DNA from: Dipetalonema caudispina
Taxonomy: Eukaryota; Nematoda; Chromadorea; Rhabditida; Onchocercidae
Assembly: GCA_013365325.1 (NCBI GenBank)
Contig: JABVXV010000223.1
Span: 1 to 64,000, forward strand
Length of the DNA stretch: 64,000 nt
Direction: 5' to 3'
Shown: positions 7,501-57,936 of the stretch, piece after piece
How positions within the stretch are numbered: position 1 is the first letter of the stretch
How the letters are laid out: each line of letters opens with the position of its first letter
The notes under the pieces: model-generated
What the model saw: only the letters and a program-made list of their open reading frames with translations
The model's database searches: none
Told to the model about the DNA's origin: nothing
Translations under genes and position numbers: made by a program

Positions 7501-10500
7501 GATATATGATAAATAGAATTATCGCAGTTATCATAGTAATACTTACGATAAGAATGATTATAATGAAGAAGTCGTAGCAATGAATTATCGTAATAATTGT
7601 AGGAACGAATCATGGATGATGAATTGTAATAATCAATCATTTCGTTCTAAATTCAATTCTTAAGTTTGTTTAAAATTTTACAGCTGCAAATTTTTCGCGT
7701 CAACGGCGAAACAATATTACAGGTACCATATGATACACCGTCAAGTTCAAAAGTATTGAAATCGATTTCAAATATTTCAAGGTGATAATTTATAAATTAT
7801 GAATAATTTGATAGAATTAGTTTAAGGATAATTTTTTTTTGCACATTTACCTTAATTTTTCACTGCTTCAGATGCTCTGGTTATGATGCTGATGACGGTA
7901 TTGTTGAGTTAACATCAGCCGGAATGACAACAGCAGCATTTGAATCGATTGATTCAAGCACTAATAGTAGCATAGATTCGGGACAAGGATCAACGGAATT
8001 AAGCTTCCAAAACTATACGGCCAAGGATTCATTCGATTGTGATAAAGCAATTTCAGAAAATAGCTTACCAACTTATGCTCGAATAGCCAGTGAGTTATAG
8101 AAATATTAAAAAAAGAAAAAAAAAACACTCAAAAGTTAAAAATATTTGTGCTTGACATCAAATAAATGAACTATCAATATTTTACCAGTCTTCAAGATAG
8201 TTTGATTAATAAAAAATCTTATTTAATTCGACAATCTTAATTATTATATCATTAATTTCATCTGTTTCAGTAATCATAGTTCTTAACTTTTTGCGAATTG
8301 TTTCATTTCAATAATCGATCATTGTGATCATATGCTTTCATACTATAATATGAAACTCATAATTATGAATAAATGAGATAAATGGAATGTTTTAAGATAC
8401 AATTGATCACGTGTTACGTGTATGCAGTACGTTTCATACAACATTAAACGATGAAATTGATGAAAAATGGACCAGTAATTTCGTATGTGAAGCAAAAGTA
8501 TTAATTGCTACAATTCAATGCTCACCGTGTTTTACGTTTCTTTCTGCTCACGTAAGTTTGCTAATTATATATTTTTCGCTTTATTAGTATTATTAAACAA
8601 GAATATACGTAAATTGTATAATTTATTACGCTAATATAAATTATACTAGTGGTTAAACTTACTAGCTGTAAGCGTTAAGTTTGACAATTAATTAAATTCA
8701 TTAATTAACCTAAAATAGATAATATCCTTTATTGATTTTTTGATATTAGATGCAATAAATCATCCATTGGTTACATGTATTCCACATCTTTGAATTAATA
8801 ATTCCATTTTAAGGATATTGAAACAGTACAACGAATGATTTCCAATTTGGAATCGGAAATGAACTGCACAGAAAAGCTCGTTAGTGCATCGAATTTTCTG
8901 ATTGTTTTATTACGAAAGATAATTCACGAAATTTTATTCATCTTTGCCAGGATAATATCAACATATCTAGCAGAATGTACCAATCGTGATCGATTATTGG
9001 TTATTGCACTTGAACATCTTATACATTTAATGCTTTTTGATGATGAAATTTGTCATGTTATTATACAGGTATAATTAAGCTACTAATACTAAAAGATGCA
9101 ACTTATCGATTTTTTTTTTTTTTTTCTTTTCAAAATTCAAAATATGAAAGAATTAAATTAGGAATATTTGTACAAGTTATGAAATTCATTAATTAAAATT
9201 AATTATAACTAGAATATAATTAACTGCGTTATAAGTAATTGCATTACAATCGGGAATTAATTGATATCAATGATAAATATCATTGTAATCTTACTAATTT
9301 AAATGAAAAAAAAAAAATTAATTTACTAATTTAGTATGGTGGTTTGGATTCGTTATTGTATTTTTGTGAAGTACCTTCAGTTTCAAATGGTACCCTTCGA
9401 TTGCTACTTCGAGCTTTAGCTATCCTATGCGGTAATCATCGAGGTGCACTGAAACTTTTAGCGGTAAATTACGATGATCTGTAATGCTTGAGAAATACTA
9501 ACTGCAATATTTGGATTTTCCTGGGAATTTACAATTTTCTATTTGTAAGATAGAAATTTCACATTTTACTACTTTTATCTGATTTATAGAAGAAATTTGC
9601 TAAAATTTCATAAAATCGCAATATTTCTTAATCAAATGTATTCAAATTTCTTTCATTTAGACATGATTGCTTAATTAAATCTTAGTCTTAAAAATAGATT
9701 AAAGATTAGTTATATTAGCTAACATAGGGATGGATAAAATAGATATCTATAGTAATAGGTTAATTTTTCAACAAAGAGAAAGTATGAGAATAAAAATTAA
9801 AACTATCGGATTTAGATTAGTGAATTTTAAATATGCAAACATTAGGAAAATTTGAATTTCACTAGAATTCGTTTTCAGCTTAATAAATTTGAATTAATCA
9901 TTCAATTGCTATTTACCTCTACGATAGCTTGCTCAGCGGAAGTAGCCGGTATATTAACACAATTAACAAATCCTAATCAAAATTATGTTCGACTTGGTAG
10001 CATGATGCCAAGAGTTGTTATACGAATTCTCGGTAATTCAATTTCTCAACTCAATAGTTCATTTTTAATTTTGAATTGTAAATTAGGCAAGATATCTTAC
10101 TATTTCCAATTCTCTTTGATCATTTAGGTTTGTTTAAATTTTCACTACAGAAACTATAATATGATTGCTTATCAGATACAATTATCATACGGAGCCTAAA
10201 TATTTCTTTTAAAATTAATATATACATTCTGTTAAATTCTTGACTCTTATCCTGAAGTTATCTACTTTTCCAATAAATATAATTATGATTTATCCATTTC
10301 TGATCTATAATTTTTCAAGTATTTCAACTAAAAATTTTAGAAATTGTTGATAAAAGTAAATTAGCGGAATCATTATTGCTAGCATTAGCTGCATTGGCAA
10401 ATATAACCATACAAGAAACCGGAACGATTGATATCCTCTACGAGCATAATGCTATTAAACGTTTTGTTCAGGCATATAAACGGCCGAAATGTCATAATGT

Positions 10501-11730
10501 ATTCATTGAAGAACAGGTAATCCGATTCATTAATGAACAAACAAAACCGGTTTTTTCCGTAATTCTTATTTTTTATTGCAGGAAAAAAAAAAGGTTGAAA
10601 TTTCAGTTGTTGACAATTTTTATCAGTCTTGCAAATGGTGCATATATTGAAGCGCTAATTGGACAAGGTGCAGTTGACCTTTTGCTTTCGTTACTGAGAA
10701 CACACGGTCGGACACATATCAATTATTGCAAGAGGATTCAGATACGTACCACGCAATGTTTACGGACAATAGCTAGTTATGGAATTGGCCTTAAGGCTAT
10801 AAATGAAATGAATGGTGTGAATTTTGAGATATTTGCGGAAAAAATAAGTTAAAATTTTAATTAAAATTAATTGGCATAATTTTTTGGATTTCGATTTTGT
10901 AATTTTAATTAATTTTAATTTTAATAAATGATACTTATGCAGATTTCAGCTTTAATCAAAATCAATAGCAAAATTTTGACCTCTTTTAATTAATTAGTCG
11001 AACTTTCTTAATTTTAAAAAATAATTTTTATAGTTTTATAATATCGTTTGCTAGAAGTTTAAACCGTATTGTGATAATTTTTGTAAAATGCATATCTTTT
11101 TGCATCCAATTTTTGATCACTTCTAATTCCTTTCAATTCAAATATTAAATCGAATTTCTTCTTCTTTTAATCTGTATGAGCCTTTTTAATAATTCAAGTC
11201 TTTTGTAAATTTAGAAACAAAAAACAAAAATGAAAATCAGCCAGTCATTTCTGAGACTGTAGAAAATAAGAAATTAAACTATTATACCATTTGATTTGAT
11301 TAAACTCAAAATAGTGCTTGCATATTTCAAATAAACCTGGAAAACTCACATTTGTTCCATTCATTTTAATTAAAACTGATTGAAATTGAAAAAGTTAAAA
11401 TTAATTAAGGTTAAAAGATTAGAATTCCAAAAATCTAATCAAACATATTTACCACTTTCGTTTTCCTTCCCCTAACATCTTTTCAACAACGACATGTAAG
11501 CTAATTGTAAGCTAATTTACATGACTCATTTGTACTTATTTAATTATCTTAAGTTTATTGGTAGAAATGAGATGATTATTTAACTGATCCTAATAACATC
11601 ATTAATTTTAGGTTATTCGGTAATATCGAAGATAATGCAAGATAATAATGTACCCATCGATGCGAAAAGTAATTTGTGGTGGATAACAGAGCAATTGGAG
11701 AAAAAGTATCAATTAGAAAGTGCTGTATAG
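4578..11730 (+). CDS. insc-1: Inscuteable homologue (spindle-orientation adaptor)
   Basis: Exons: 4578-4798, 5658-5819, 6068-6410, 6810-7205, 7367-7477, 7684-7781, 7872-8089, 8397-8551, 8814-9068, 9335-9463, 9879-10032, 10341-10516, 10607-10814, 11612-11730. They total 2745 nt, or 914 residues plus TAG, with all phases consistent. Inscuteable links the Par3/Par6/aPKC cortex complex to LGN/Pins (GPR in worms) and so orients the mitotic spindle. Residues about 19-43 contain AWLTEL, then EPECIFILYAKS, which matches the LGN-binding segment of animal Inscuteable (W..L...ECEC..LQAK in vertebrates). Residues about 44-500 are a polar, low-complexity linker rich in S, N and Q. From about residue 568 onward the protein is Armadillo-like, including LALAALANIT and HNAIKRF, which resemble human INSC (SAALANIT, LNAIR). 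The protein ends ESAV, a class I PDZ ligand; human INSC ends ESFV. It is longer than the human protein because of the linker. The start ATG lies just before the conserved segment. A second acceptor (TTGCAG at 10576-10581) in front of the exon starting at 10607 would give an early stop. Confidence 0.85.
4799..5657 (+). other. Intron 1 of the Inscuteable gene
   Basis: An AT-rich intron of about 860 nt between a phase-2 donor (AAA|GTATTT) and the acceptor TTGCAG at 5652-5657. It contains a poly(T) run near 5500 and nothing gene-like. Confidence 0.7.
10815..11611 (+). other. Last intron of the Inscuteable gene
   Basis: An intron of about 800 nt between the phase-1 donor AATG|GTGTGA and acceptor TTTTAG. 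It separates the last Armadillo-like repeat from the short exon that carries the C-terminal PDZ ligand. Nothing else is recognisable in it. Confidence 0.65.
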
Positions 11731-22346: not shown

Positions 22347-22786
22347 TTATAAGCCTTGTACAAAAACGGGTGGATTTTTGGATAAATCCATGCGTAGCAA
22401 CATTCCCGATCTATTGGTTATCACTTCACCATGACATTGTAATGTTGATGCGGAACTATCGCTATACGCTGAATCATCCGATACCCGAGCGGTAGAAGCA
22501 GCTGAGATTGGTGCATTTGAATGACGAGCAGCAAGAAGTGAAGTTGATGTAGGCTGTGGTGGAGGAGATGGTGGTGGTGGCGGTGGTGGTGGTGGGAAAT
22601 TAGGTGGTGGCCTAAAATGAAGGGTTCCTAATTCAGGCCTAATAGTAGAAGATAGGCTAGGACTGGGTACAAATGTTACAGGTGTCATACAATTGAAATA
22701 GTATTGATTTTGCTGTGGTTGATGATAGTAATTGGATGGTGAGGTGCAGAGATCGTCGTAGCTAATTGTTGCATAATCGTATAATG
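22347..22786 (-). other. lat-1 last coding exon, cytoplasmic tail
   Basis: The exon enters in phase 1 (G+CA, Ala) and ends at TAA. It has a YDYATISYDD segment with several tyrosines, a run of nine prolines, a serine-rich stretch (SDDSAYSDSSAST) and the terminus VFVQGL. This terminus is not a classical class I PDZ ligand. Confidence 0.88.
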
Positions 22787-25700
22787 CTGAAAAATAATAA
22801 ATGTTAATAATTATAAACATAGTATACAGCAATATATAGCATAGAATATTTAAATATTTCAAAAAATTAAGCAATAATTTCTATTTGAATATTTTAAGCC
22901 ATTCCATTTACTTATTTAATCTCAAAATTTCAGCCAAAATTTTCATTAGTAAGTAAATAGTAGTAAAGTTGACTATGTAAATAAAATAATCTATCCAATT
23001 TAGTCTTCTGTATTTGCATATATACGTTGAACAAACACGTGTAACGTCAAAAAATATATATAGAAAATAAGCAAATCACAGAATTTATGCTAATGCATTT
23101 TCCATTCAAAAGAATAAAATATCAAATGGAAATTTTGATATCTGATAGATTAAAGCGTAATACGTTAGGCTTTAGATCACATGAAACATTATCACTTCAA
23201 TTAAAATCTTTATTGCGGATGTATACCTATGGTGTGATATAGCAATATTGATTAATTATTTGTTATCTAACAGATATGTATGGTTAATAAGCACTTGTAT
23301 GAAAGAAATGCAAAATTTGCGAAAGTTTAATTTTGTTGAAAAATAGTAAATTTAGCCATGGTATAGTATCATTCAAGAGTAACGAATAAAAATTTACCAT
23401 TTTGATTACATCGTTGTCGTGCCAGAAGCATTTGTACCGAATTATTGTAACGTGGATCAATTGCAGCGACCATACGTGGTGGTGGTACTGGTAATGCTGG
23501 ATATTTTTCGCTCATTGAGGGGTACTGCAAAAATATCGAAATTAAAGAAATAAAAAAACAAAAAGAAAGAAAAAAGTACCGTAATAAAAAGAAAGTGGCA
23601 TAAACATGCAAATTTCAAGTTATTACCATATGATCATCTTGATAAATTTAAAATCGAATAAATTACAAGTTTTTGTCAAATTTTAGACAAATTCGTTGTA
23701 AAAGCAGTATTATAGGCAAAAGCAAAATAATAATAATAATAATAATATGCAAAATTAAAGAGAAGAAAATTTTCAGCCATGCAAGGAAAAGACAATTGAT
23801 GCAATGATTTCTGCTAATTAATTATAAGAAATAACTGATACTTTGTAATAATTCAAATCTATCAAAAAAAAAAAAAAGGGTAATATGATGATGCATTCAT
23901 TCTGAACGGAGTAATATTCCGCAACGGTAATTTCAATTCTTCCGCTCCATAAACCGTTCCTGCGTAATAGTATCAAATGATAGATGAAAGGTATGGTTTT
24001 TGTTATCCGATAATTTCTGGCTCAAATAGCATAAATGATATTCTTGATGAATTATTCAGCAAGCAATTAGTAATGTAACTTATTTCCGATAAATGAATTA
24101 TATGAAAAAAAAAAATTATCAGTAATCAAGCAACCCATATGATTATTTGATCCCATGAAAGCATAACTAAAAAAAAATTTACATATTTATAACATAATAT
24201 CGGTAGCGCAGTTGAAGAATATTAATTCACGTGCTGGTGGATATTCTTTTGTGTATTTCTAAAGTTTGAAATTTTTATCAGAAACTAAATAAAATCTTCG
24301 AATTTACCTCAAAGCTTTAGCTTTTCCACTGATTTTCAATTTCAGATTATAAGTTGATATATGTTTTATATGTGAGTATTTATGCAAAAGAAAAAGGGAA
24401 AAGAAAGAAAGAAGAATTCGATGAATTAATGAAAGGATAAGAATAATAGCAGAAGTTTAGTTAGTTTTCAGGCATAAAAAGAAACTATTAGGAATATAAT
24501 TATCACTGATATCAATGATACTGTATCATTTATTCATCTTAACTTTATAAATGTAATTATGCAATTACTACGAGCACGGTACTATTATCTTAACTTTTAA
24601 GACAATTTTAGTTAAATTAGAACACTGTATCCACCGTATCCCCCTCGTCCTCAATTATAGTAATGATTTAATTGATAAAATTGAATTAATTATATAAATG
24701 TTGAAAAAAGTGTGTATGTGTGTATCACTATGACATTCATAATTAATGAAATAAATATTTGGAATGGACTGACAAATTAACACAAATTAAATGAATTATC
24801 TCATTGTAAAACATTTAAGAGTGAAAAATTTAGGATAAAAAAATCTGAAAAAAAAAAACAATTCCAAATTAACACTTCAATCTTTTAATTTCATATTAAA
24901 GTTTTTTTTTCCTCCTAAATGGAAATCATTTGTAAATGTGGATGGAAATAAATATAAGAAGGAAGGAAGGAAAAAGAAGAAGGATGATGATAAATGATAG
25001 ATGACTGATAAAGCATTGACGAACCTCGCCTTAAATGGATTTGTTCAACAATTAAACCAGCCCGTTGACTAGCCAACAACGGTGAATACTCATCGCTTTT
25101 GCCACCAAAATGTTTGGCAAATCTCTTCAAATTAAATGATAAAATGATATGTTACTTATAGTGATAACAAACTGATAAGATAGCCGTGCATTGTGATATG
25201 AAAAGAAGACAGATAGCTTAATATTATGTTGAGATTAATGCAACATTGCTAATTATTCAACAAAAAAGGAAGTATAGTTTGAAACAAAAACAAAAAAAAA
25301 AAAAAAACGGAAGTGCAAAATAAAATTTAAAAAAATATTTGGAATTTTCTTTCCAAATTCTTATGCTATAATAGAAATAATTAATTTTTGTATATTTAAA
25401 CATTATTTAGTGAAGAAATTGGTAGTAGTTTAATAATATATTATATTTGTAAGTATTGAAGGCATTTTTTTTTTTTTTTTTTTGGAACTGTTAAAAAATT
25501 TGAAAAAAAAGCTATGAAATAATTATAATGTAATGAAAATTTTAAATAAGAAATGCATTAATGTATATACCACAATTTTTTACGAGAACAGCGAGAATTT
25601 TTACGTATGATTTAGAGACAGATTATCTAAATGACGTTTAAATGTTTACGCTTAAACTTTGAAAAAAGACAAAACAAAAGAGAAAACGAAAGGTTAGTGT

Positions 25701-28700
25701 TGAAGATTGATACGGTAATTGTTGCCTTTTCTTAGCAATCGCTTTCAACAGCATCTTCACGTATTTTCATCCGTGAAAGTACTGTAGACGTATGAGAGCG
25801 GATATATTCCATAAAAGTAAAACGTTAACGGAATATATTATAATTGATATCATATTAATATGGATAAAATTAAGTAAGTAAATTTTACACTTACCAATAG
25901 TTCAGAAGCTGTTGATGAACTAGAACTGACTGCTTGACCTGTTTTATTAGTGGTACTTGTAGGTAAGTATGGCATCGTATGTGATATATGACTTGAATCA
26001 TCACGCATACAATCCGGTGCCCAGGATACATGTTTCATCCATTTTTGGTAATCTTTATGCAACTGAAAAAAAGGCTTATAAGCATGTTGTTGTTGTTCAT
26101 ACAAAACAAATAATTACAAATATTCAATGAATATTATCGATCGATCGGTACTGCGTATATCACAAATTTGGCAAATAAATTTTTGGCTTAAAAATTAAAG
26201 AAAGAAAATTAAAATCTGTAAATTGATGGATTACTGTAATGCTGCAACAGTATCAAATCTAATCCTAATTGAAAAAAGTTTACTGTAACAAGATGAATTG
26301 AAAAAAGGGAAAAATGACGAACTCGATCATTGAAAGCAACATGAAATAGGAAAATAAACAATCCTTGGAGAGAATTCATAATAGTAAATGCATAAGCCAT
26401 AAAAACTGATTGCTCATTGATCCATAAAAATCCAAAAGTCCAAGTGAGACCTAATATGGTAACCAGTGCTATTGACCCCTTTAACCAATTTCTGAAATGT
26501 TACAAATTTAGGTCTTTTTATAATAAATCGGAATTTTAAATAAGATTATTCGGTAGCAGAGTGATTTTATAAGTAAACTTTTAGTTGAAAGACGAAAATT
26601 CCATCATCAGAAACTGATAAATAACCTCCTCCAATATAAATTATAGCCCGATTGAGTTGGTCAAGCGCAAAATGAAATTTGGTATGGTACCTACAAACAA
26701 ATGATTTGCTTATTAGTGTAAAATTTTCATACCGAACATTTTTCAACGCATCACGATCCTGTTTGCATGGTGTATAACCGATACTGGAATGACTGCATAC
26801 AATAAATAGTGTCATCACGAGGAAGACTGTATTACAGAGTAGAATGATAGCTACCGGTCCAACGAATGCTAGAATGAAGTAATTATCGGATCGTAGCCAA
26901 CAGTATCGTTCTGTACCGTAGCTAAATCGATCAAACCATATCGATACAGTAACAATTGATAATGGGAATCCTGAAACAATTAAACGTTTCTTTACAATGT
27001 TAAAAGTGATATTTACATATTCAGAGATTAAATAGATCCGATCATTGGCGATTTAATGATAAATAATAATAAAAGAATGTAAAGACTAATAATAGCATGT
27101 ACATAATAATAAATTTGGAATGCGGAAACAATTAATCTTGGAAAATACCGGGTTTATAACAATGATAAATTGATTAGAAAATGATTGATTTTTTCTGGAG
27201 AAAACGAAAATTTAAAAAATGAATGTAGAAGCTTACCGTAACCAAACAGTAATATGTATAATCTTTTGGAATCTTTCGATTGGAATACCTCAATTAGCAT
27301 ATAGTAAAGTTCGAAACCTTCTAATAACATCCAGGAAAATGCAGCAAGAAAGAAATAATGCAATATACCGGCTACGATACTGCAGCAAAGCTGAAAATTT
27401 ACAAATAATTTTTAAAATTTAATTATAACACGAAAATTATTGATAATTTTAATCAGTCGTGTCATGAGTCGTCTTTATGATAATACATATGAATGTCAAC
27501 AATTGTCATAGGTAAGTCAGGATGTTAAATTATGATTAACAGTTGACAAAATATCATAAACTTTTGCCATAGTTTTACTTTAACCAAAATGAAATACTAT
27601 TTATTTAATTTATATGATAGATACATTGAATTGATCAAAACATTTGATTTTTCTACAAAATTATCAAATTACGTTAAAATAACTGCGGATAATCTTATGA
27701 TAACTTGAATAATAATAGAAAAATGAATTATATAATATAAGAGGAATAAATTGAAAATTCGTACTGAATTATTTGTTTGCCATATACCACCAAGAAAGAC
27801 AGCTTCAGCTATTAACAATGTGAAACAAAGATTTTTATGAATAAAAATTCGATCACCACCACTGGTACCAAAACATTGAAATGCAAATAGTGAAAGTAGA
27901 AGACATATTATTGATATTGTACAGCCAGCATAAGTTATAAATGTTAATGCTATATTATGTCCAATTGAAAGCTGAAATAATTATGAATTAAATTTTACAA
28001 ATTTCAAATTATTAGAAGAATCTAAAAATATTCAACAATTTGTTCCAATTATCATACCTAAGTAAAGTAGACGAATCTAAACTGAATTATTAATATTATT
28101 AAATGATATCTTGCAGAAAAAAAAAAAATTTCATTTTTTAGCACTTCTCATTCAAATAAACCGTAGAACTTCCCTGAGGTATGAAATATTTCTCAGGCTC
28201 ATTTTTTGCTTACAACCAAATTAAGCAATTTGAATAAGCATTTTAAAATAAGTTATTATATATGTAAATATAAAGTTAATTCGTAATGATTCGAATCAAT
28301 ACGTCTCTTGTGATTTAAACGTAACATTTTAGGAATTCTAAAAAAAAAGAAATTGATTGTAAGACATTTTAATAGACTAATAATAGTTTCACTTACTTCT
28401 TGGTAATGGACATCCATGAGGACAGCAAAATATGTCAAATGATTGCAATGACAAATGGTATGAGTTTTATTATGCAAATGAACTATACAACCAGATGATG
28501 ACCATTGTAAACGGGTACGATTCCACCACACGCATTGCGGTGAGGAAAGATTTACTCGATCCTAATATATGTAGAAATTTAAATATAAGAAATCATTTTT
28601 TACAACTACTCCTTATCATAGGAATCATTCACTACAGCTATTTAATCGTTATTAATTATCATATCTCTTTTACTTATTTTGCCGATAAAATTAAATACTT

Positions 28701-31700
28701 TTCTTTGGCTCGATTAGTTAGATTTTTTGAAACAATGAATTTTACTTCACTTGGTATCAAATGAAAGTAAAACTTAGGAGCTGTTGAGATGATATATCCT
28801 TCAACAAATTCCCTTCTCTCATTCAATAATTCCTATCAATTATAGCTTAACTCATTTTTCAACACTCCTACAAATTTTTTTACTTCTGATTATTTGAAAT
28901 TTAAATTTAAGTTAGCTCAAAAAATTTTAATACGAAAAATTAGCCACATTTTCTTGCTTGAAATTTCCTTAATTATAACGATTTTTTCTGCCATTTAGCT
29001 AATCAGTTATTTTAAAGAAATTATCTGATCTAAAATTTCAGATCTAATAAAGATTGAATACCTCTGTTGAAAATGTAATAATAACTGGTTTACGAAGATG
29101 ATCAATGGTTTCAATTTTGCTGTCGCTATTTATTATTGATAGGGAAACTATTTTTGATGCAATTTGACGTGGTACCATGGTACCATCTACATCTTGACGT
29201 GGTTCCGGTTTTAGATGTTTACCCATCGATGAATATGCCACATAAAGAATTTTGGCTTCATCTGCAACTTATTTTTCAACTATTACAAAATCGCATTAGT
29301 CAATTTTTGTTTCTTGCAACCTGCTACAAAACTAAAATTTCTATAAATTAACTCTTAATTTATGGAATTTAAATTCATTCCAATCTTTTCAATATGAGAT
29401 AATATGAACAAATAAATATTATATAATTATAATCCGAGTAATCATAATAAATAATTATGCTAATAAATGCGAAATCGTGATTGTAAACAAACCGATAGCA
29501 TTATTGCGTAGAGTCAATGCTTCTCGTGGAATATCAACCGTATCATCGGTTGTTCGATACAAACTTGTACTTGGAAATGCTACATAATCATGTATCCGAA
29601 CAGCTGATATTTCAAGCTCAACATCTAAAAATTATAATTGTTGAAGATTCTAGCCCTTTTCTCGTTTCTTTAAAAATTGCAATCATACTCGAATCGAAAT
29701 CAGAATCATCATTCTTGATCGTAAAAACGATAACAAGTTATAACATTGATAACACTATAATCATGACGAAATGATAATCACGAATATTTTTTATTTCAAT
29801 TAAGTTATGAATAAGAAAAATGTCGCCAAATTATTGAACAAGTTAGACAAGGTAGATTTTCCATGGTATTTAATTCCTTACATTCTCATGAGTTAAACGA
29901 TTCAAGTTGATTAACTAATCGCTTTAATTGTTCAATTTACCAATAAAGATGAAAAAATTTGCTGTGTAACCTAAATCCGTTAATATTATCACTTCGTTAT
30001 CAATTTTACCGCTATGTATGCAAAAATAATTTCATACCAGTATTAGGTTTCATAATGATACGTGGTGTATCAGGAGTAATTAATGCACTGATCGTCATGG
30101 AGACTTGATCCACAACATTCATCAGTTCATCAGCTACCATACGTCGTTTTGCACCTTTCAAATCATTCCATGCTGATGTTTGAGATTCTTTCGCCATATT
30201 ATTCACACTTTCCACAGTTAACTACAAATTAACACTCGATTAATAGTTTTGAAATATGAAATTAAAAATTACAACACAATCAATATTGCTATGTTTGACT
30301 ACTATCAATGGAAATTAAATTCAATGAAAATCAAAAATTATATGAAAAATGATACTTCAACAAATTTATCTGCATCATTATCATAAATTGTGGTTGGAAT
30401 AAGCAATTTTATAGCACGAGAAAGAGCGATCAGATCACCACCAATCAGCGGTTCACGTCGTGTTCGTTGTTGAATTTCCTGCAGAAATTCCAATCGATCC
30501 AGTGGACCATCTGCTTCTTCCGCATCCATAAGTAATCTTAAATTTTGAATTAAAGTTACAGATTAATAAAAGGTTTTTAATTAGGGTATTTGGGTGGTTA
30601 GGTAAGCTAAAACTTACAGTTAGCTTTGAAAAAAATAATAAATACAACTATTCGATCATTGCCTACGATTCGACAAATATTGCAAATATTTAAAATACAA
30701 ATACTTCTTACCCTTTACTCCATGTGCTAACACAACGTGACAAATCCGGTCCGTCTAATTCCCATTGTCCATCCGATCCACATATCCATTCTGCGTAACC
30801 CGTTGATCCGATTGGACATGGTACACGAGCTATCATGCCAAATTCTGTTTGTGGCCAATCAATGTCACGTTCCGTTATCATATCACAGAATAACTGTTTA
30901 CCATCACTGTCTAACAATTTCATCGTCCTTTAAATTTGAATCAATTCAATTAAAATTTATTCAAATTTAAATTCCGAACAATTGAAGTTTTCTATTTAGT
31001 TTACCTTAAAATTGAAAATTTAACATAAGCGTTACTTACGTGAAATCGCTTATCATCGATGATTTTGTTAAATCAATTAACGGTTGTGTCTGATTAGTAG
31101 TTGCTGTTCTGAATGTTGTTGCTATTGATGTACTTATTGTTGTTTTTACTGCAAATTTCATCGTTCTTTTTTTTTCCCCCATAGATAATATAAAAATACT
31201 TTTGATCAATTGAGTAAAAATTTAAACAAAATTTAGCAAATTGTTAATAAAAATTATTTGAGGTGCAAATTATATCAACTGTTAAGGATATGCAAAATAA
31301 AAGATGGACATGGACAAACATGAAATCAAAATTTGTGTAACAAATATGATATAAGTTTTTACCAATTTATCTATTTTCAAAGTTAAGTTTCAATTTCTGA
31401 TTTTTTTATTTTCTATTTCAGGAAATATTATTGATCATAATCATATATGATCTATTTTGAATGTAAGTGCAATTTAAGTTGTTTAAATTGAAACAATCTT
31501 TTTGATAAATTAAAATTTAACTTTGAAAAGAAATAAACTCAAAGGAAAAAAAAAAAAACTGTCATAATTACTGCATATCAGCGAAATATGCTCTTTTCAT
31601 GCTTCTTTTCAATTGTTGTACCATTCTTCTTGCATTTTTCTCGATTAAATTTCATAATAAGATTTGATTTTTTTTTTTTTTGTCATTAAATACAATAAAT

Positions 31701-34700
31701 TAAATTTGTATATATTATTTTGTTATAGACAAAAAAAAAAAAAAAAATTAAATAAATTTGAAATTTTAAAACATTTTCAAATATAATACATGATTATTGT
31801 TACCAATATCTGGCTTTTTGCTGCATTTGAATTCCACATCTAAATATTTTTCCGTATCCGGGCATGGATCACCAAGTTCTTCGTTGTTTACCGAAATGCT
31901 ACACTGCGTATGACCATTACATCTGCACAAAAACAAGAAAAGCAAGCAAAATGAAAATGAAATGTGTAAACAAGAAAAGAAAAACAAACATGAAAAATAA
32001 AAATAACAAATAACAAAAAAAAAAAAAAAAAAAAATAATAATAAGTGAATGATAATAAAACGAAATGTGCCATAAGTTATTAAGCTTATTCAAAATTTTT
32101 TCAATGCAAAAATGAATATTACATAATGATCAGTGCTAGGTTAAAATTTCAGGTCAAATAGATAATAAAATCGATTCTTTATGAAGTATATGTTTGAAAT
32201 ATATCCTTACATTTCCTTCCTTGCCTATAGGATATGAAATTGAAATAAATAATAAAAAATTCCTTCTCCTGTATCCTTTAACTTTGTAAAAATTTTGAAT
32301 TTTTAAAAATAATTTTTTCTTAACTTCCATTTATCCGATTGAAAAATGTCGATTGCTACTTTATACTATCAGCAACAATTATCATCACATGCTTCAATAT
32401 TTTATCAGTGAAATCATTTATCAAATAATAAAAAGATCTATGTGAGAAACATTTCTTGTCTACTAAATCAAAAATCCTTGAAAAGTGAGATTCGCGGGAA
32501 TCTCGTATTTTAAGATAGAATTTCCAAATATCTTTCAAGAATTACCTAAGAATTTGCACCACTTCAAAGGAGAATTAAATGGTAAGTCTTGAAAAATTGG
32601 TTTTTTTTTTTTTTTTTTTTTTTTAATGACTGTGTAGTGAAAAGAAAATTAGCACGAAATCACTAGTTAGCAATCTGAATTCAAGCAAGCATTCCGGTAA
32701 AGAAAAAAAAAAACGGAAAAGAAAAACAAGCAGAATAATCACGAGAAACACAACAGATATGTAAAATAGTACAATACAAAAATTCAGTGCATGATGTGAT
32801 TTGAGTTAAAATTTAAATTGAAATTTGTAAATTTCGTTTGATACCTTCTATGCATGAATAAACAATTTCCAGGTATTTTGGTACCCCAGGACATGAATCC
32901 ATACCGAAATGGCTCGTTTCCACATCAAACAAACATCGCTGCTTATCGTCACAACTAAACCGGCAAATTTATATTTTATAAAAAATTTTTAAACCAACTA
33001 TACATGAAGCCCTACTTGATTTAATGTTTTTTTTTTTGGAATTTTAATTTTACATATCACAAATCTGATTTATAAAACTTTTGTGTTTAAAATTTTGGGT
33101 TTTCTTCTTGTTTCATAACTTTATCAAGAAGATCACGAGAATTAGCACGATGAGGTTTTTTTTTCTCTTTTTTTTTTTTCGTTTTTTTAAAGATCAATTT
33201 TTGTTCACAATTTACAATTTAATCAAAAATACTACAAATATCGCTGATAATAAATGAACAATTAAAGTTGATGGAATAGCAAAATTTCCAATAGAGCAAA
33301 GAATTTTTCATTTTAAGTAATTTTAATTTCACTATAGGGATTTATATTTCGATCCATTTAATCTCAACGAATTCATTCTTCCTTTCTAATTTATGTTTCA
33401 AAGTATAAAGTGATATTGATGCGACAGCAAAGACAAAGGATGGAAAGTGATGATAGCTTCTGGCTCATTTCCGAAAGGCTATTTTACTGGCCAAATACAT
33501 TATTTCATTTAGCTAAGAAATATTGGTAATTACATTTGAGAATTGGTTGATGAGAGAGGTATTTCATCGAATGGTATATTTCATCTGATAATAAAACAAA
33601 AGATAAATTTTTCATTACAGATATACCCAAAGAGTTGGGAAAGAACAAATTTAACCATTTTTAATTCTTTCAATAATTTAAATTACAAAAACTCAATTCT
33701 ATCGGATCATTTAATACGTTAAGCTAATCAAAAAGTTAAAAATATTAGATTAGCTATGAAATAGAGTGACGTTAATTCAAAACGTTAATTTAATCATTCA
33801 AAGTTCGTTTTATTCACCAAATATTTGACACTAAAGCAATTGGATTAATTAAAAAAACGACTCATTTCTTAAATTTAAGATTAATCACTAGGAAATCATT
33901 CGAAATAACAAATGACAAAAGAAATTATTCAAGAATTTATTCTCTACATTTAACAATTTATGCAATAATTAATCATTATCAGATAGAATAATCATTAAAA
34001 CTATTTGTATAATTCTTAACTATTTTTTGCTATCATATTATAAATAAATTTTTCCAATTTCGTCTTTGAAATCATAAATTTATTCATTTTTTTTTTCTCC
34101 TCATTTTCCCTTCCTTTCTTCATTTTCACTTGAATGACGAAAATGTTGAAAAAAGGATGGAAAGGAAAAAAAGAGAAAGAAACGGTACCTCAAATTATTT
34201 TCATCTCAATTGATTCACTGTTATTATCAGAAAAAAAAAAAAAAAAAAAGAAATCTGAGAAAGAGAAAAATATCTATTGGATGGAAAACAAAAAAAAAAA
34301 AAAAAAAACCCTCAAAATTGTCCTTCAACAGGTATTTCCCTTTCTTTCTTTTTTTTTTTTTTTTTTATTTATTTCAACGTTAGACCATTCGGCGTCGTCA
34401 AAACTACCAATGAAATTTGCCTATCATTACTTTTTCGAAAAATATCTTTTTTTTTTTTTTCACAATGTTTAAATCAGAATGAAAAAAAAAAAAATAAAAT
34501 TAAAAATAAAGGTTTTGTCTTTTTTTTTTTCTTTTTTTTTTTTTTTTTAATAAACGAATAAAAAAAAAATCCTTTTCCATTTTTTATCATTTCATAACAT
34601 ATATTTTTATATCTATTATTTTGTCATCTAATAATTATCACTTTGATTTAATATTAATTTTTAAATTTTTATATTTTATTGCTTTAAATCGTTCTCTTCA

Positions 34701-37700
34701 TTCTTCTTCTACTACAACATTTGCTGCAATTTTTTCAACATTGTAATATTTCAGATTTTTTAAATATATATAACCTATTGCTATTGTGCTAAAATATACT
34801 TTGATGATTTAAAAAGAAAAAAAAAAGAAATACGCATGAATGGATTAAAGGATCAGTGAGTATCGTATATAATTATAATACATTATTCATTCTTTTGCAG
34901 AACTATAAAATTAATGACAATGTATCGGAATATATATTTATATATATTATCATCTTATTTACCTTTCTTCATCAATTTCCTACAATGAATATATTCATAA
35001 ACAAATTTACAATTGTATGTATGAAGTGATACGTAGATTAATTTTATTTGATATTAAATTTCATTACTTTTAATGATCAAATAACATTCGAAATGATTGT
35101 TAAAATTTGATGAAACAATAATTGTTAATCTTAAGAAAATTCGGAGTTTGATAATTGAATTGAATCTCTTAATCAAAGTATTCTAGTATTTCTAAATATT
35201 ATCTAAAATTTAATTTATACATAATCAAATGTTGAAACTAAAGATTATATTTGAGGTGAAATTTGGAAATTACATCAAATAAGTTTCGGAAATATGAATT
35301 ACCATGAAATATTGCAAATATCTTTAAGCATAAAATTCTCCAAAATAATTCTATTGGTGCGAGTTAGTCTTTTCGATTATCACTTCATTTTTTAAAGGAT
35401 GAAATGTGACAAATTCAAAAAATTTAAATTAGATTCAGAAAAAAAGATAAAAAATAAACTGCAAATTTTGCAAATGCTTAATTCATGCAAAGGATGATGT
35501 CTAAAAGTGTTAAAATTTTAAAGCTACCATAAACAGATATGACAAAATGAAATTAAATTATCAAAATTATAACATGCACATTAGAGTTGATCAACAAACA
35601 GATGTTCAATTTTTTAAACTGTTCATTAAAAGGCTTAGGCTTAGGTTTAGATTGATTTATCCAATCAATTTAGATAAAGAATATTTTAGTGAAAAACAAG
35701 AGAAAAAAAAAATTAGGTAAATGATCAGGTAAAAAAATGGTGTAATTTTCATGTTTATTAATGTAAAATGAATAAATCCCTCAGTTACAACAATTAATAT
35801 ACAGTTTACAATGTTGCGATATTAAATGAATGAATTTTTACGCCTGCAAAAAGGATTAAAGTAGCAATTATAGCACACAGACAAAAATGTTAATTATCAA
35901 ATTTTAGTTTGTAATATGAGACGATAATTTTTTTTTTTTTTTTTTTATGGATTCAGGACATCCATCTCATTTCCTTTCATTTGTTCATAGATGAAACCAT
36001 AATTAACCATTCATTGAAATGGAAAACGATAGTGACATTATTTACATCTAATAATAGCCATTTAATCCGTTGATGACAATTTTTACATTTTTCCATTCAA
36101 AAATTCAACCATTATTATTCTATTGCTATAATTAGCATATTTCTTAGCAGTAACAAAACAACAACAATGATAAAATTTTACAAAATTTTTAAAATATTTT
36201 AGATTAAAAAAAAAAGAAAAAATAATAAGTAATGGAAGAAAAATTCGAAAATTTTTATAATTTTTAAAATTGAAAATTTTTAAAAAAAAAAAAAACAGAG
36301 AAAAAAAGCAAAAAAAAAAAAAAGGAAAAAACCATTTGCTTTAATCGTTTGCTTTCATACTTTTTCTTATTTTTTTTCAATTACCAATATTCGAATATAT
36401 ATTATACAAAACTAAAAGCATAACCATCTAATTATCAATTATCATGCAGATATATCCATCTGAGATAATACTTATGATGCAGAAAAAAAAAAAAAAAAAG
36501 AAAAAGAATGAAAGGAAATGAAAAACTGGTCTAATTTCACGCATCAATACATTTAGCACAAAATGTAGCCTAGACCTTTTTTTTTTTGTCCATTTTTATA
36601 AGCTTCATATTATTGCTGTTACTATATGATTTCTATCTAATCAAGATTATGATATGGAAAGGTAATACATGTACACCTGCTCTTTATTATGTGTGCTTTT
36701 CGATGCTAATCCTTGCAAACAGATCAACATTAAGCTTGATTGCTTACTATCGAAATTATGCTAAATCAAAAGAAAGGAAAGAAGATAAAGAGATTATTAG
36801 AATTAAAAAGGATTTAAATAAATGATAGGATAATATTCAATGAATTCATTAAAACAGCTTTCATAAATTAATTTCTGCTTATTTAAAAATTCAAATTTTT
36901 AGCTTAAATAAAATACAAAATTGAACTACTATTTTTGATATTTTAACCATACTACTTTAAATTCATATTATTATAAAAAGACCTTAACTTTTTTCCATAA
37001 TTTAAGATAATTTTACATTTTATGAAGAAAATCTACCAAAAAATAACTATTTCCTTTTCTTCCTCTCTCTTTTCTCATAGTATTAAATTGACATTTTACA
37101 ATTTAACTTTCGCAGAAAAAAATTTTAACGGATTTAAGATTTAGAAAGCCTAAAATTTGCGCTATTTCTGGGAAAAAAAGAAAAATCTCTGAAATATAAT
37201 TAAATTCTACCACGATGAAATAAAATGGACAGAGCATCTTAATTATCCGATCAAAAAATATCCGACCAAATCATTTAATCACATTCGATTAATCGATACA
37301 TATTCTCAACTTTGATTGAAATATTCGTAAATATATGGGGATTTAAATACAATTTTGAAATATTCTTGAGTAAATTTATTAAAAAGTCAAAACGGGAAAG
37401 GCATAATTAAATAACTTCAAAAATTCATAATATCCTCAAAATAAAAAATCTTCAACAGTTCCAAAATATTTCTATATTTTACCTAAAACTTTCTCGATAA
37501 AAACCATTTCATACTTGCTTGACTGCATCCAGTAATATATACTTCTCCTAAGATAGATATTTTGTATTTGTTTAATATACAGTAAGTAACAACAGCTGTT
37601 GACCTTAACCTCAATAAATGGATCAAATGACCGGAAAATGGGTAGTATTACGATAGGTCGATAAAAAGTAACAACTAATTAACTTAAATCACTTTAAATT

Positions 37701-40700
37701 TTTCTGATAACAAATGATAATGATGGATTAAATGGACAAATATAAAGAGGCAAATTGATAGCTAACCATATTAGGTAGACAAAGTTAAAGTTGAGGATAG
37801 ATTAGTTATCGGATCTGATATAGCTATGAAGTACAACAAATTTAGTATATTATTTAGCTTTTTTGACATAATTTCTAAAGCTAAAACTATTAGATAAGTA
37901 TCAATTTATTCAGTTATCTTTTTGGCTATCATCTATACTTTACAAATTCAACTGTCAAATTTCTTAGAAGAATAAACATTTTTTTTTTTGATCGATAGCT
38001 AAAATAATCTAACATTTCCGGAATATTTTTAATTAATTATTCTAAAAGTTCAAAGTTTATTTACCACTATCGTATCGATTCGTTTTAAAAATTATTTTCA
38101 ATGGCAACAAATTTTTTTTTTTTTTTTAATACCGAAGAAATTAAATAGACAACTAAGCCTATGGTATCATATTATTTGAGGATATAAGAAATTTGCATGA
38201 ATGTAAATTGATATGTTTACTTTTTAATGGGGAAATATCATCAATACTTTCAAAGTAACCAATATGATCCATTTTACCATGGATAATTCCGAAAAAAAAA
38301 AGGTACTACATAGTAAGCTAAAAAGATATACACTTCGATGTGTAAATTTTATTATCCAAGAAAATTAATTTATTAAAAAAAAAAAAAAAAAACGAAATTT
38401 TCCCAATCATTTTTCTAAAAAAATAAAAAAAATTGATTGAAAAGAGATTGCTAAATTGCAACATTTTGTTTCATTTTCATAAAATTATAATGTCAAAAGC
38501 AAAAAAAAATAAAAAAATAAAAAACATTTACCATTGAAAATTTCAAAACAAATTTTGTCATTATCATTCAAAAAAGATGAATTTTTGTCTTTTTTTTTCT
38601 TAAAAATAATAAAAATTAAAACTCAGAAAGGTAAAAAAAAAAATGAAAAAATTCTATTCAAATACTTAAATAATTTCCAATAAGTTATTCAAAATATTCC
38701 ATAACTTCATAAATCTTAAAAAATACTGGCATTAGAAGATGATAGAGAGAGGGAGAGAGAGAGAGAGAAAGTGAGGAAAAATGAAGACATGAAATTTTAA
38801 TGGCCAACAATTATCGTTAAAATATGAGGACCAATAAAAGAAAAAAAAAAAAGAAAAGAAAAGGGGAAGAAAATAATTCAGGAAGTTTTCATCATTTAAA
38901 TTCTATGGTAAGAAAAGGAAATGTAATGAATTTCTAAATGGGAACAATAAATATTTTCAACGAAATGTAGTAGCCAAACAAACAAATAAACTAATTTCAA
39001 TTTCATCCACTATAATGATTGATTTATTAAGTGAAATATGAAATAGATTGAACTAAATAACAAACAATATAAGCTTAGCTTCAAATAATCTTTTACAAAT
39101 TTATAATTTTGTTTTTTTTTTTTTTTTTTTTTTTTTAAAATCTAGCTATCAATTGATTATTTAGAAACATCGAGAGAATTTCACATTCCCATTTCTCTCT
39201 CTCTCTCTCTCTCTCTTGAATAAAAATATGAAACTTTCGTGAAGTTTTCTTTTTTTTTTTTTTTTAAAACAAAGGAAGGAAAAAGAAAAAAAAATTTATT
39301 TAGAAATTGACAAAAAAGGAAAAAGTTATCCGAGAAAAATGTCATAATTTTATGCATTTTTCAATTAATTCATCAAAAGGAAAAAAAAAAAGATTTTACC
39401 ACCTGTAATAAGCTAAACTCATAAAGGTTAATAAATTAAATATTTTAATTGAAAAAGGTAAATTCAAAAAAAATAATTCATCGGAGGAGAAAAAAAAAAT
39501 CTAACCTTAATTTCATTATAGCTAATGTTCGATCATTTTGGCATGTGGTACTTAAATCAGTACGATGACTTGGATTACAGAGGCCCAAAGTAAAACGTCC
39601 ATAATTTGCCAATTGTATAGCAATATACCTTCCGATCGGACATTCCAGATTTGCCTCTTCACCTTCACAAAATATTTTCTGAATTGGTGCATCTGCAAAA
39701 AAAAACAAAAAAAAAATGAAGTAGTAGAAAAAAAAAAAAAAACGAAATCATCATATGATACAATTATTTAAATTTGACAAAATGATATGTATATGTACCG
39801 AATTGTACGGTAATTAAATTTTCCAGATTTTTTTTTTGTTCTTTAAATATATGGTTAATTGGTGGAAAGATTTATAGGATCTTATATAACAATATTCTAC
39901 GTCAAATATTCATAATTAATTTTTAGAAATTTATATCGGAAACTAGCCGGAAATGCTGGGAATTTGATTAAATTATCGAATGTTAATTGATAGGTACACA
40001 AATTCATGTAAACATAAATAATAATTGATTTTGTCTGTAATGCTTCGCTTTCTTTAAACTTTTTTTTTTTCACAGTATTTAAACCATTAATTGATTTTTT
40101 AAACTTTCTAAAATTAGAGTAATTAGTAAATTTCATTTACATTTATATTAAGATATTAATTGTTGATTGAATTTCGTACTGTTTAGAAAATATGAAATTT
40201 AATGAACTTTCCTTCTATTATTGAAAATAATAGATGCTAATTTATTTTCGTGAATTTTTCAAATGCCATATACTTCCCAAACAACATTATCTATTTTAGT
40301 TTACTAATTAGTTAAAATATCGTTAATTTGTTAATTAATTTAATCAATTTCGGAAGCTTCTTTCATCTCAAAAGATACATAATTTAGGAGTACATGTGTT
40401 ATTTACTTGTCTTTTACTATTCAATCCTTCATCTGTTTATCGAAAAAGGACAAACTGAAGTAAATAAGCCAATTTTGGAATAGCCAAATGGTCAAATGAT
40501 GACCCTAACTTGACTTTCTTCATATTTACGATTCTTCCGTTCCGCTTCCTCAAACTCTCTTCCACATTTCTTACAAATACTTTTAGTGGATCACTCACTG
40601 TTGGATACCACTTAAGAGAATGAATGCTTTTGTTAAAATTAAGAGATAAATCTAACCATCCTACCAAATGCTTATTCATTCAATAATAATTTCTTCATTT

Positions 40701-55329: not shown

Positions 55330-57936
55330 GAAAATAAGAAAGAAAAAAGTTTTTTTGACATACCTTAAAATAAAAATTTTTCTTTTTTAAAGTGTTGTAT
55401 AGGAGAAGTAAAAGAACAGATTTAAAGGATTTAGACTAAGCTTACTATGGAAAAATTGGAGTATTAAAAAGCCAAACTATATAAAATTAAGTCTTTCTCT
55501 TGGGATTAACAAAGGAATCAAACAAATGAGGCATTTTTTTTTTCTTTTTTTTTAGATGCAATATTTTGACAACGTTGAAAAAAAAAAAAAAAAAATTTGA
55601 TCGACAAAAAAAATAATTCAAGTTGTACGAAATAAGCATACGATAAGTTTAGCATATTTCGAAATTACTCATCTAATAACTTCAATTATTTTTCACTTCT
55701 TTAGTCAAGAAAACACCATAATTTGTAATTTAAAATTTTAATGCTAATGTGAATTTAATGGAAAAAAATATTTGTTCACAAAATTCTATTAGTATCAGAA
55801 AATCTAATACTAATAAATCGGCAGTCGTAGTATTGATGAAAACTTAAGCAACAAGCCGATGAGCAATTTCCATTTTGTTGAATGAAGGAATCAGAATGGC
55901 AATCGATCGAAGGAATTGATGGTATTATACCCGTTTGAATTAATGAATAGCAACGATATGGAAGGGATCAACAACATTATGCTTACATGCTGCAATAAAT
56001 AATGAAAATGAAAATGATTGAAATAACGAAAAATTATATTAAAAGTTGATTGAAACATTCAAAATGTTACCCAATCGAAAGATTCGATTGAATGAATCAA
56101 TAAATGGATAAGAATGTTGCAAGGAAACTTGAAAATGAAAATAACTTTTTTGATAATTGAAAGAGCGGAAATGAATTTAAAAAAAAATACAGTAAGATTG
56201 ACAACAATTAATTAAAGGAAACTTATGTTGCCAATTACTTTTTTTTTTTTTTTTTAGTATCTTTAATAAAATTAAACTAAGAAATGTCACATTTCCTTCC
56301 TTCCTTGTCTTTTTTTTCCGGAATAAATTATTGGATTTTAAAAGTATTATATCTTCAGGAAAACCATTCTTTTCTATCGTTAATTTATCGTTTTTTTTTT
56401 TCACGAATATTTTCTGCTATTTTTCATAGTAACAAAATACATACTTTTGAAAAAAACTAATCAGAAGGAATTGTTGAAATTCATTTGAATTTCATAATTT
56501 CATTCTATATTCGTTTAATCCATACCTATTTTACTTCTAATTTATTTCAAATAGCTTTGATGTAATATATTTTATTTTATGATATATAAGTTGGTTAGAG
56601 GCAAATTCTCTTTACATCCATCCTTTCGTTGAGCTTCAAATATCACCTACAACTGTCCACTGATCAGAAAGATGATAGTGATGAGATAACTTGGCTGATC
56701 ATTATATGAACATTAAATATTTCCATTCTATATCCATTTTGCTTAAATTTCAAAATCAAAACTTTTCAAGATATGATGAATAAGAAGTTAAGGATATCGG
56801 ACAAAATAAATGGCCAAATAGCTAATAACCGATTAACTTAGCTTACATAACAAAGGTAGAAATATCAAACATAAAATTCTCCCGAGATTACGCATAAATT
56901 TACATATACAAGCAGAAATTTTGAAGAGAAAGTGGAAGTAAAAAAAAAAAAGAAAAATCAAAGTATCTTTCGACATTTACGTATAATATCAAATTGACTT
57001 AAAAATTATTTAGACAAATTTGGATGTTTCTCTTGAAAATAATTGAAATTGCCGAAAAATGACTGAAATTTGTCTAAACATGAAAAGATCAATTTTTTTA
57101 CAGATCCTAGAAATCTTGAGTAAAAGGATTTTTTGTGGGAAAAGTTGAAAATTCAAGGTTAAATGAAAATTTCAAAAATTCAAGCAAAAATTTTAAGTGT
57201 CACATCAAAACAACAAGCAATGGATATCCAAGTTAATTTACCTATTCCTAATGCACTTAATTGGATAGAAAAAAAGCTTATTTAATTAAACAATTCAACT
57301 AGAAGGAAATGACTTATTCTGCTTATATGCTATAATCTCGACTTAACCCAAATCACTCCTATATTTATTTTCCGGATAATCAACTCTTCAGGTTCTTTTA
57401 TATAAGCCTGAACTTTATCTTTTCACACCTATTTCTTTACTGAATGTACAAAGAAAATTTCTTTTTTTCCTAACAATTCGAAGAATTGAAGTGGACAAAA
57501 TTTGATGATTAAATTTTGGACCATTTATTATAGTGGAACAAATATTTTGAATTATACAATAAAAATGAAAATTGAATTTGGAATAGTTGAATTTGGAATC
57601 TGAAGTACATTTACGTTTGCAAGAAAGCAACGAATGGAACAAAACAGACTAGCAATGACTTACTAAATTTATAAGTAAACAACTAAAGAAATAAGAAAAT
57701 AAGCACCGAGTAATTTTAAATTCCAATAATGTCTGCTAAAAATACTTACTAATTCTTCCTACGACATAACATATAATCGAAAAATATTTGAAGAAAAGCT
57801 AAAAATTTATAAAAAATACATCGAGTAATGGATTAGTTTAAAGAAGTATTTTAATAAATAAACAAATAAGTTAAAGCTAAATGAATAATTTCATCATTTT
57901 AATATGATTTGTTAATGCATCAGTACTGATAGGAAA

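Follow-up and report, generated by a model that had tools for sequence, protein, structure and literature searches.

Mutually exclusive exons are a well-known kind of alternative splicing, helminths included: the coq-2 gene of nematodes carries two homologous exons of which each transcript takes one, so that the core of the protein changes, and these exclusive exons are conserved across parasitic worms (PMC7434440). Latrophilins, too, are extensively spliced. In the accounts given for mammals, an extracellular event on the lectin side inserts 4-5 residues after the domain (PMC6629964, PMC13108381), splicing also changes the tail, and a figure legend indicates mutually exclusive splicing for both Lphn2 and Lphn3 (PMC6629964). 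For lat-1 of C. elegans, which likewise encodes a latrophilin, over 20 different transcripts have been described, differing mostly at the N-terminus (PMC11540312), and a 2008 splicing microarray lists lat-1 among the stage-regulated events (PMC2265522). The receptor is also of practical interest, as LAT-1 has been linked to the way in which the anthelmintic emodepside acts (PMC4270693). Here, we describe two homologous candidate exons for the second half of the lectin domain in a filarial latrophilin gene, and ask how they compare with these systems.

The window, i.e. the whole 64-kb stretch of Dipetalonema caudispina DNA that was analysed (G+C content 25.6%), is latrophilin-coding on its minus strand from 39692 to 22347, as judged from a hand-made exon model. 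This model joins a constant exon (e1), exon A or exon B, the next constant exon and 13 further exons (Table 1); without the start exon, which it does not include, it yields 994 residues before the stop in the A form and 997 in the B form. In residues 1-753 of the B form, the Pfam families SUEL_Lectin, HRM, GAIN, GPS and 7tm_2 all scored above their cut-offs, while the A form was checked for the lectin domain alone. The closest proteins come from filarial nematodes and are themselves latrophilins (67 to 85% identity over the aligned part in eight filarial matches), and the top matches include filarial proteins named latrophilin or depsiphilin. At the level of the predicted protein, the gene is confirmed as a filarial lat-1 type latrophilin (ADGRL) adhesion GPCR. 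Upstream, the tentative signal-peptide exon exits in phase 1, matching the entry that e1 requires.

Table 1 Features of the latrophilin locus, in the order of transcription (positions within the window)
Feature	Position	Strand	Remarks
Possible signal-peptide exon, MRNLGRILCLIFLPLL	56847..56895	-	Tentative; a simple scan gave two nested candidates, of which this is one
e1, constant exon, first half of the SUEL/RBL lectin domain	39506..39692	-	Exits in phase 2
Exon A, alternative second lectin half, SCDDKQRCLFDVETSHFGMDSCPGVPKYLEIVYSCIE	32845..32954	-	110 nt; enters in phase 2, exits in phase 1; acceptor weak
A-B intron	31923..32844	-	922 nt; contains TGTTGTGTT at 32755-32747
Exon B, alternative second lectin half, RCNGHTQCSISVNNEELGDPCPDTEKYLDVEFKCSKKPDI	31804..31922	-	119 nt; enters in phase 2, exits in phase 1; acceptor and donor ordinary
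Next constant exon, Thr/Ser-rich linker	31040..31148	-	Phase 1 entry
13 further modelled exons: HRM, GAIN, GPS, 7TM, cytoplasmic tail	22347..30927	-	Stop at 22347

Two further stretches of the window were noted. Outside the gene model, the minus strand from 25124 downwards reads RFAKHFGGKSDEYSPLLASQRAGLIVEQIHLRRGS, similar to a tail segment (RFTK..GGKSDEYSP) of the Dirofilaria, Setaria, Acanthocheilonema and Onchocerca ochengi latrophilins; this stretch is likely an alternative cytoplasmic-tail exon. On the plus strand, i.e. opposite to the latrophilin, an open frame at 10304-10852 gave weak, sub-cut-off matches to the inscuteable C-terminal domain (E 1e-4) and to an Armadillo repeat, and is perhaps an inscuteable-like gene.

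A preliminary description of this DNA had drawn attention to exons A and B, and the coordinates, lengths and phases it gave for them and for their neighbours all proved correct. Both exons contain the proposed motif, C-x5-C followed by D[PS]CP..KYL.[IV], and both lengths leave a remainder of two when divided by three. The consequences for the reading frame are established directly from the sequence: e1 followed by either exon and the next constant exon stays open throughout, with both included, B is read out of frame for 11 codons until a stop is reached within it, and with both skipped, 18 codons are read out of frame before a stop is reached in the next exon, in keeping with the earlier claim that both or neither breaks the frame. 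Moreover, either exon completes the lectin domain, with Pfam scores of 71.2 bits for e1 with A and 74.8 bits for e1 with B (PF02140, cut-off 31.4), and both full domains match solved rhamnose lectins as well as latrophilin lectin domains.

The two exons share 11 of 33 residues, the cysteines and KYL among them. A half-domain HMM, with A and B themselves among the sequences of the model, was run over all six frames of the 64-kb window and gave clear matches to A and B only (E 1e-18 and 9e-22; next best 0.37), with no third copy of the lectin-half exon. Pfam SUEL_Lectin, a model independent of A and B, matched four places in the whole 78-Mb genome (764 contigs), two of which were A (32.3 bits) and B (38.3 bits; cut-off 31.4). 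As the sole clear HMM matches in the window and two of only four places genome-wide, A and B are homologous beyond chance.

The preliminary description had suggested a search for the same pair in other nematodes, and this search bore fruit. Among ten retrieved filarial latrophilin proteins (P0001-P0008, P0020 and P0022), five carry A directly before B; the other five (P0001, P0002, P0004, P0006 and P0008) begin at or after B and are uninformative on A. Both exons of the pair are hence maintained in related filarial species. In Litomosoides sigmodontis (P0007) and Wuchereria bancrofti (P0022), A stands in frame and is followed by an apparent read-through intron and then by B. In Cercopithifilaria johnstoni (P0005), Onchocerca flexuosa (P0020) and Setaria digitata (P0003), A precedes B in the wrong frame, as is to be expected of a gene finder made to string together two exons that do not fit one after the other. 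These off-frame peptides force no stop in the true A frame, and are compatible with the true-frame residue of the window at 24/26, 22/26 and 12/13 positions, respectively; when the residues were shuffled (10,000 times each), the average count was 5.1, 4.4 and 2.6 and the highest 13, 14 and 8.

Where A is in frame, its identity to the window was 31/37 in both Litomosoides and Wuchereria, and 34/37 between these two species; the corresponding values for B were 26/33, 28/33 and 27/33. Going by the comparison of Litomosoides with Wuchereria, A is conserved at least as well as B, and the predicted proteins indicate that exon A is not a relic. Setaria belongs to the Setariidae and Litomosoides to the Onchocercidae, and since A precedes B in both families, the pair probably dates back at least to their divergence.

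The five proteins P0003, P0005, P0007, P0020 and P0022 have wrong-frame or read-through sequence between their lectin halves, and the deposited filarial latrophilin proteins that cover A and B look misannotated. Filarial gene models that reach the two exons fuse or misread them, so constructs designed from such models would be wrong. None of the retrieved proteins joins e1 to A, and none of the filarial ones joins e1 to B; one (P0021) has an e1-like stretch that continues into an apparent intron. When the A region of the model was used as a protein query, one candidate came up and none scored, a result that may reflect only broken gene models around the 6.5-kb intron.

We consider it very likely that A and B constitute a mutually exclusive exon pair in the filarial lat-1 gene. 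Probable mutually exclusive splicing was also the proposal of the preliminary description, and this part of it is upheld by the frame logic, by the completion of the SUEL domain by each exon and by the order of A before B in five filariae; the part concerning two ligand-binding faces is not (see below). The worm thus probably makes two forms of the latrophilin receptor. In a productive mRNA, e1 would be joined to exactly one of A and B and then to the exon at 31148-31040, and the two receptors, identical elsewhere in the model, would differ solely in the second lectin half. In this scheme, both exons would truly be used, products with both exons or with neither would be cleared by nonsense-mediated decay, and the pair would have arisen by tandem exon duplication before the split of Setariidae and Onchocercidae.

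A different use of the same frame arithmetic would be that A is spliced together with B on purpose, to give either a frameshifted, short lectin-only product (a complete RBL-A extended by 11 residues) or a non-productive mRNA by which receptor levels would be lowered. The joined frame indeed stops 11 codons into B, the 922 nt between the exons suffice for normal splicing, and N-terminus-only lat-1 variants are described in C. elegans (PMC11540312). However, deliberate joint inclusion leaves unexplained why A exits in the phase of the next exon, with a frame open through the receptor, and why A completes the lectin domain as well as B does, and we consider it improbable.

The splice sites of the two exons are unequal. 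Using a weight matrix derived from the 15 other acceptors of the gene, which were themselves scored leave-one-out, the acceptor of A reached -7.3, below all 15 others (-2.4 to 11.9, median 7.9), and 232 of the 313 AGs in the region score as well as it does; the acceptor of B scored 6.6. The donors are ordinary (6.5 for A and 6.3 for B, median 7.3). This weak acceptor had gone unmentioned in the preliminary description. On a conserved exon, it suggests A to be probably the regulated choice, which would require an activator, and B the default. It could alternatively mean low or lost use of A in this species, i.e. that A is a conserved but little-used or decaying exon here and B effectively constitutive. 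In line with this, the A of the window deviates at residues on which two other filariae agree (H for R, V for E), but its frame and cysteines are intact, its donor is ordinary and it retains 31 of 37 residues in common with each of these relatives, making disuse of A very improbable.

As to how the exclusive choice between A and B might be enforced, the A-B intron is in our judgement too long for steric blocking and long enough for normal splicing. Complementary intron elements, another earlier suggestion, did not stand out: the duplexes predicted among the 600 nt before A, the A-B intron and the intron from B to the next exon were matched or beaten by 9, 14 and 21 of 30 shuffles. With neither a steric block nor intron pairing beyond the shuffles, there would be left a regulator acting at the acceptor of A, combined with decay of the wrong products, both of which we infer. 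The local RNA fold over exon A was ordinary (z 0.07), and Rfam gave zero matches within 31000-40000. The element TGTTGTGTT, located 90 nt after A, resembles the UNC-75 site; with 2 copies in the window, a number reached by 14 of 100 shuffles, it is no rarer than chance allows and serves as a lead only. TGCATG, the Fox-1/ASD-1 motif, occurred 21 times in the window (23.8 expected), with three sense-strand copies in the e1-A intron and zero between the acceptor of A and the next exon.

Outside the filariae, five nematode proteins (P0010, P0011, P0012, P0014 and P0015) have a complete lectin domain with a single second half each, and none of these five halves is clearly A-like; the Thelazia (P0009) and Toxocara (P0013) proteins begin too late to show the choice. 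Identity to the B of the window was 18/33 in Ascaris, 20/33 in Gnathostoma and 17/33 in Anisakis, vs 15/33, 14/33 and 15/33, respectively, to its A, and the Parascaris half is identical to that of Ascaris. Halicephalobus shares 15/33 residues with B vs 16/33 with A, and C. elegans, whose lectin domain (PDB 8suf) was compared by sequence only, is about equally distant from both (15/34 to A, 15/33 to B). A is thereby slightly closer to the forms of Ascaris, Halicephalobus and C. elegans than to B itself, and as it resembles filarial B no more than it does the forms of other nematodes, the pair might conceivably predate the filariae.

The remaining two SUEL_Lectin matches of the genome lie on another contig (C444, 782293-784144, minus strand), where two SUEL lectin domains also have their halves split across separate reading frames. 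We read these matches as the second halves of two lectin domains in one gene, which we take to be eva-1-like; between the two matches, the opening half of the second domain can be recognised. A second exclusive exon pair at this place is ruled out, as the reading frames there show two lectin domains. That A itself is an exon of another gene or a stray lectin-exon copy (e.g. of eva-1) inserted in the intron is extremely improbable, for although its likeness to B (11/33) does not exceed that to one eva-1-like half (15/34), A shares strand and phases with B, no further SUEL half lies in the window and it is followed by B in five other filariae.

What would an exclusive choice between A and B mean for ligand binding? 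The preliminary description had envisaged two interchangeable ligand-binding faces, which overreaches, as the vertebrate residues for which teneurin contact is published lie in the first half, which stays constant. Residues reported to contact teneurin are D55, D68 and D73 in Lphn2 (PMC6978801) and C36, S38, R44, D49, C66 and D67 in ADGRL3 (PMC7195488), and a synthetic binder of an overlapping latrophilin site adds E37, Y39, Q72 and K115 (PMC9902482). Numbering the Lphn2 chain such that 55, 68 and 73 are Asp has a single solution, which places the exon boundary at residue 96; the ADGRL3 numbering corresponds to that of Lphn2 at an offset of six, with all named residues except S38 sharing the Lphn2 letter. 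On this scale, the named contacts all fall within the constant half except K115, which is the KYL lysine and present in A and B. Replacement of the entire ligand face by the swap is therefore not supported.

The swapped half does contain the CP-x-x-x-KYL loop of the sugar pocket, which reads CPGVPKYLE in A vs CPDTEKYLD in B. In mouse Lphn1, rhamnose is contacted by E42, G117 and K120; with G117 as the reference, A presumably retains the glycine of the sugar pocket and B has an aspartate in its place. In the predicted proteins, the swap is thus one of the sugar-pocket loop and the remaining surface, and it may plausibly shift the preference for glycans or partners by way of the CP-G/D-xx-KYL loop and adjoining surface, above a constant teneurin-type face. 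A teneurin glycan has been described to enter the sugar pocket of the lectin (PMC7195488). A bolder version, in which a filaria-wide, cell-type-regulated switch of lectin specificity would let A bind a glycan or glycosylated partner via its kept glycine and B not, the constant teneurin-type face being shared, is conceivable but in our view rather unlikely; were it true, one adhesion GPCR would read two sets of partners. A literature search for a Toll-type partner of the C. elegans lectin domain gave no match.

The arrangement found here shares with helminth coq-2 the two homologous exons in a nematode gene and, probably, the choice of one of them per transcript. It differs in that coq-2 encodes a metabolic enzyme and its exclusion is backed by RNA-seq (PMC7434440), whereas the lat-1 pair concerns an extracellular receptor domain and is predicted from genomic sequence and protein models. 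Among receptors of its own kind, the main text on C. elegans lat-1 names no exclusive lectin-domain pair, the details of the individual forms being given in its supplement (PMC11540312), and the literature searched, with supplements and most subscription papers outside its scope, held no description of such a pair in lat-1. Mammalian latrophilins resemble the filarial gene in that extracellular alternative splicing takes place next to the lectin domain; the passages devoted to this event describe the short insert and no swap of half a fold (PMC6629964, PMC13108381). Latrophilin splicing as described so far in these accounts changes linkers, tails or whole ends, whereas the exchange of half a lectin fold would amount to a natural experiment on what the domain recognises.
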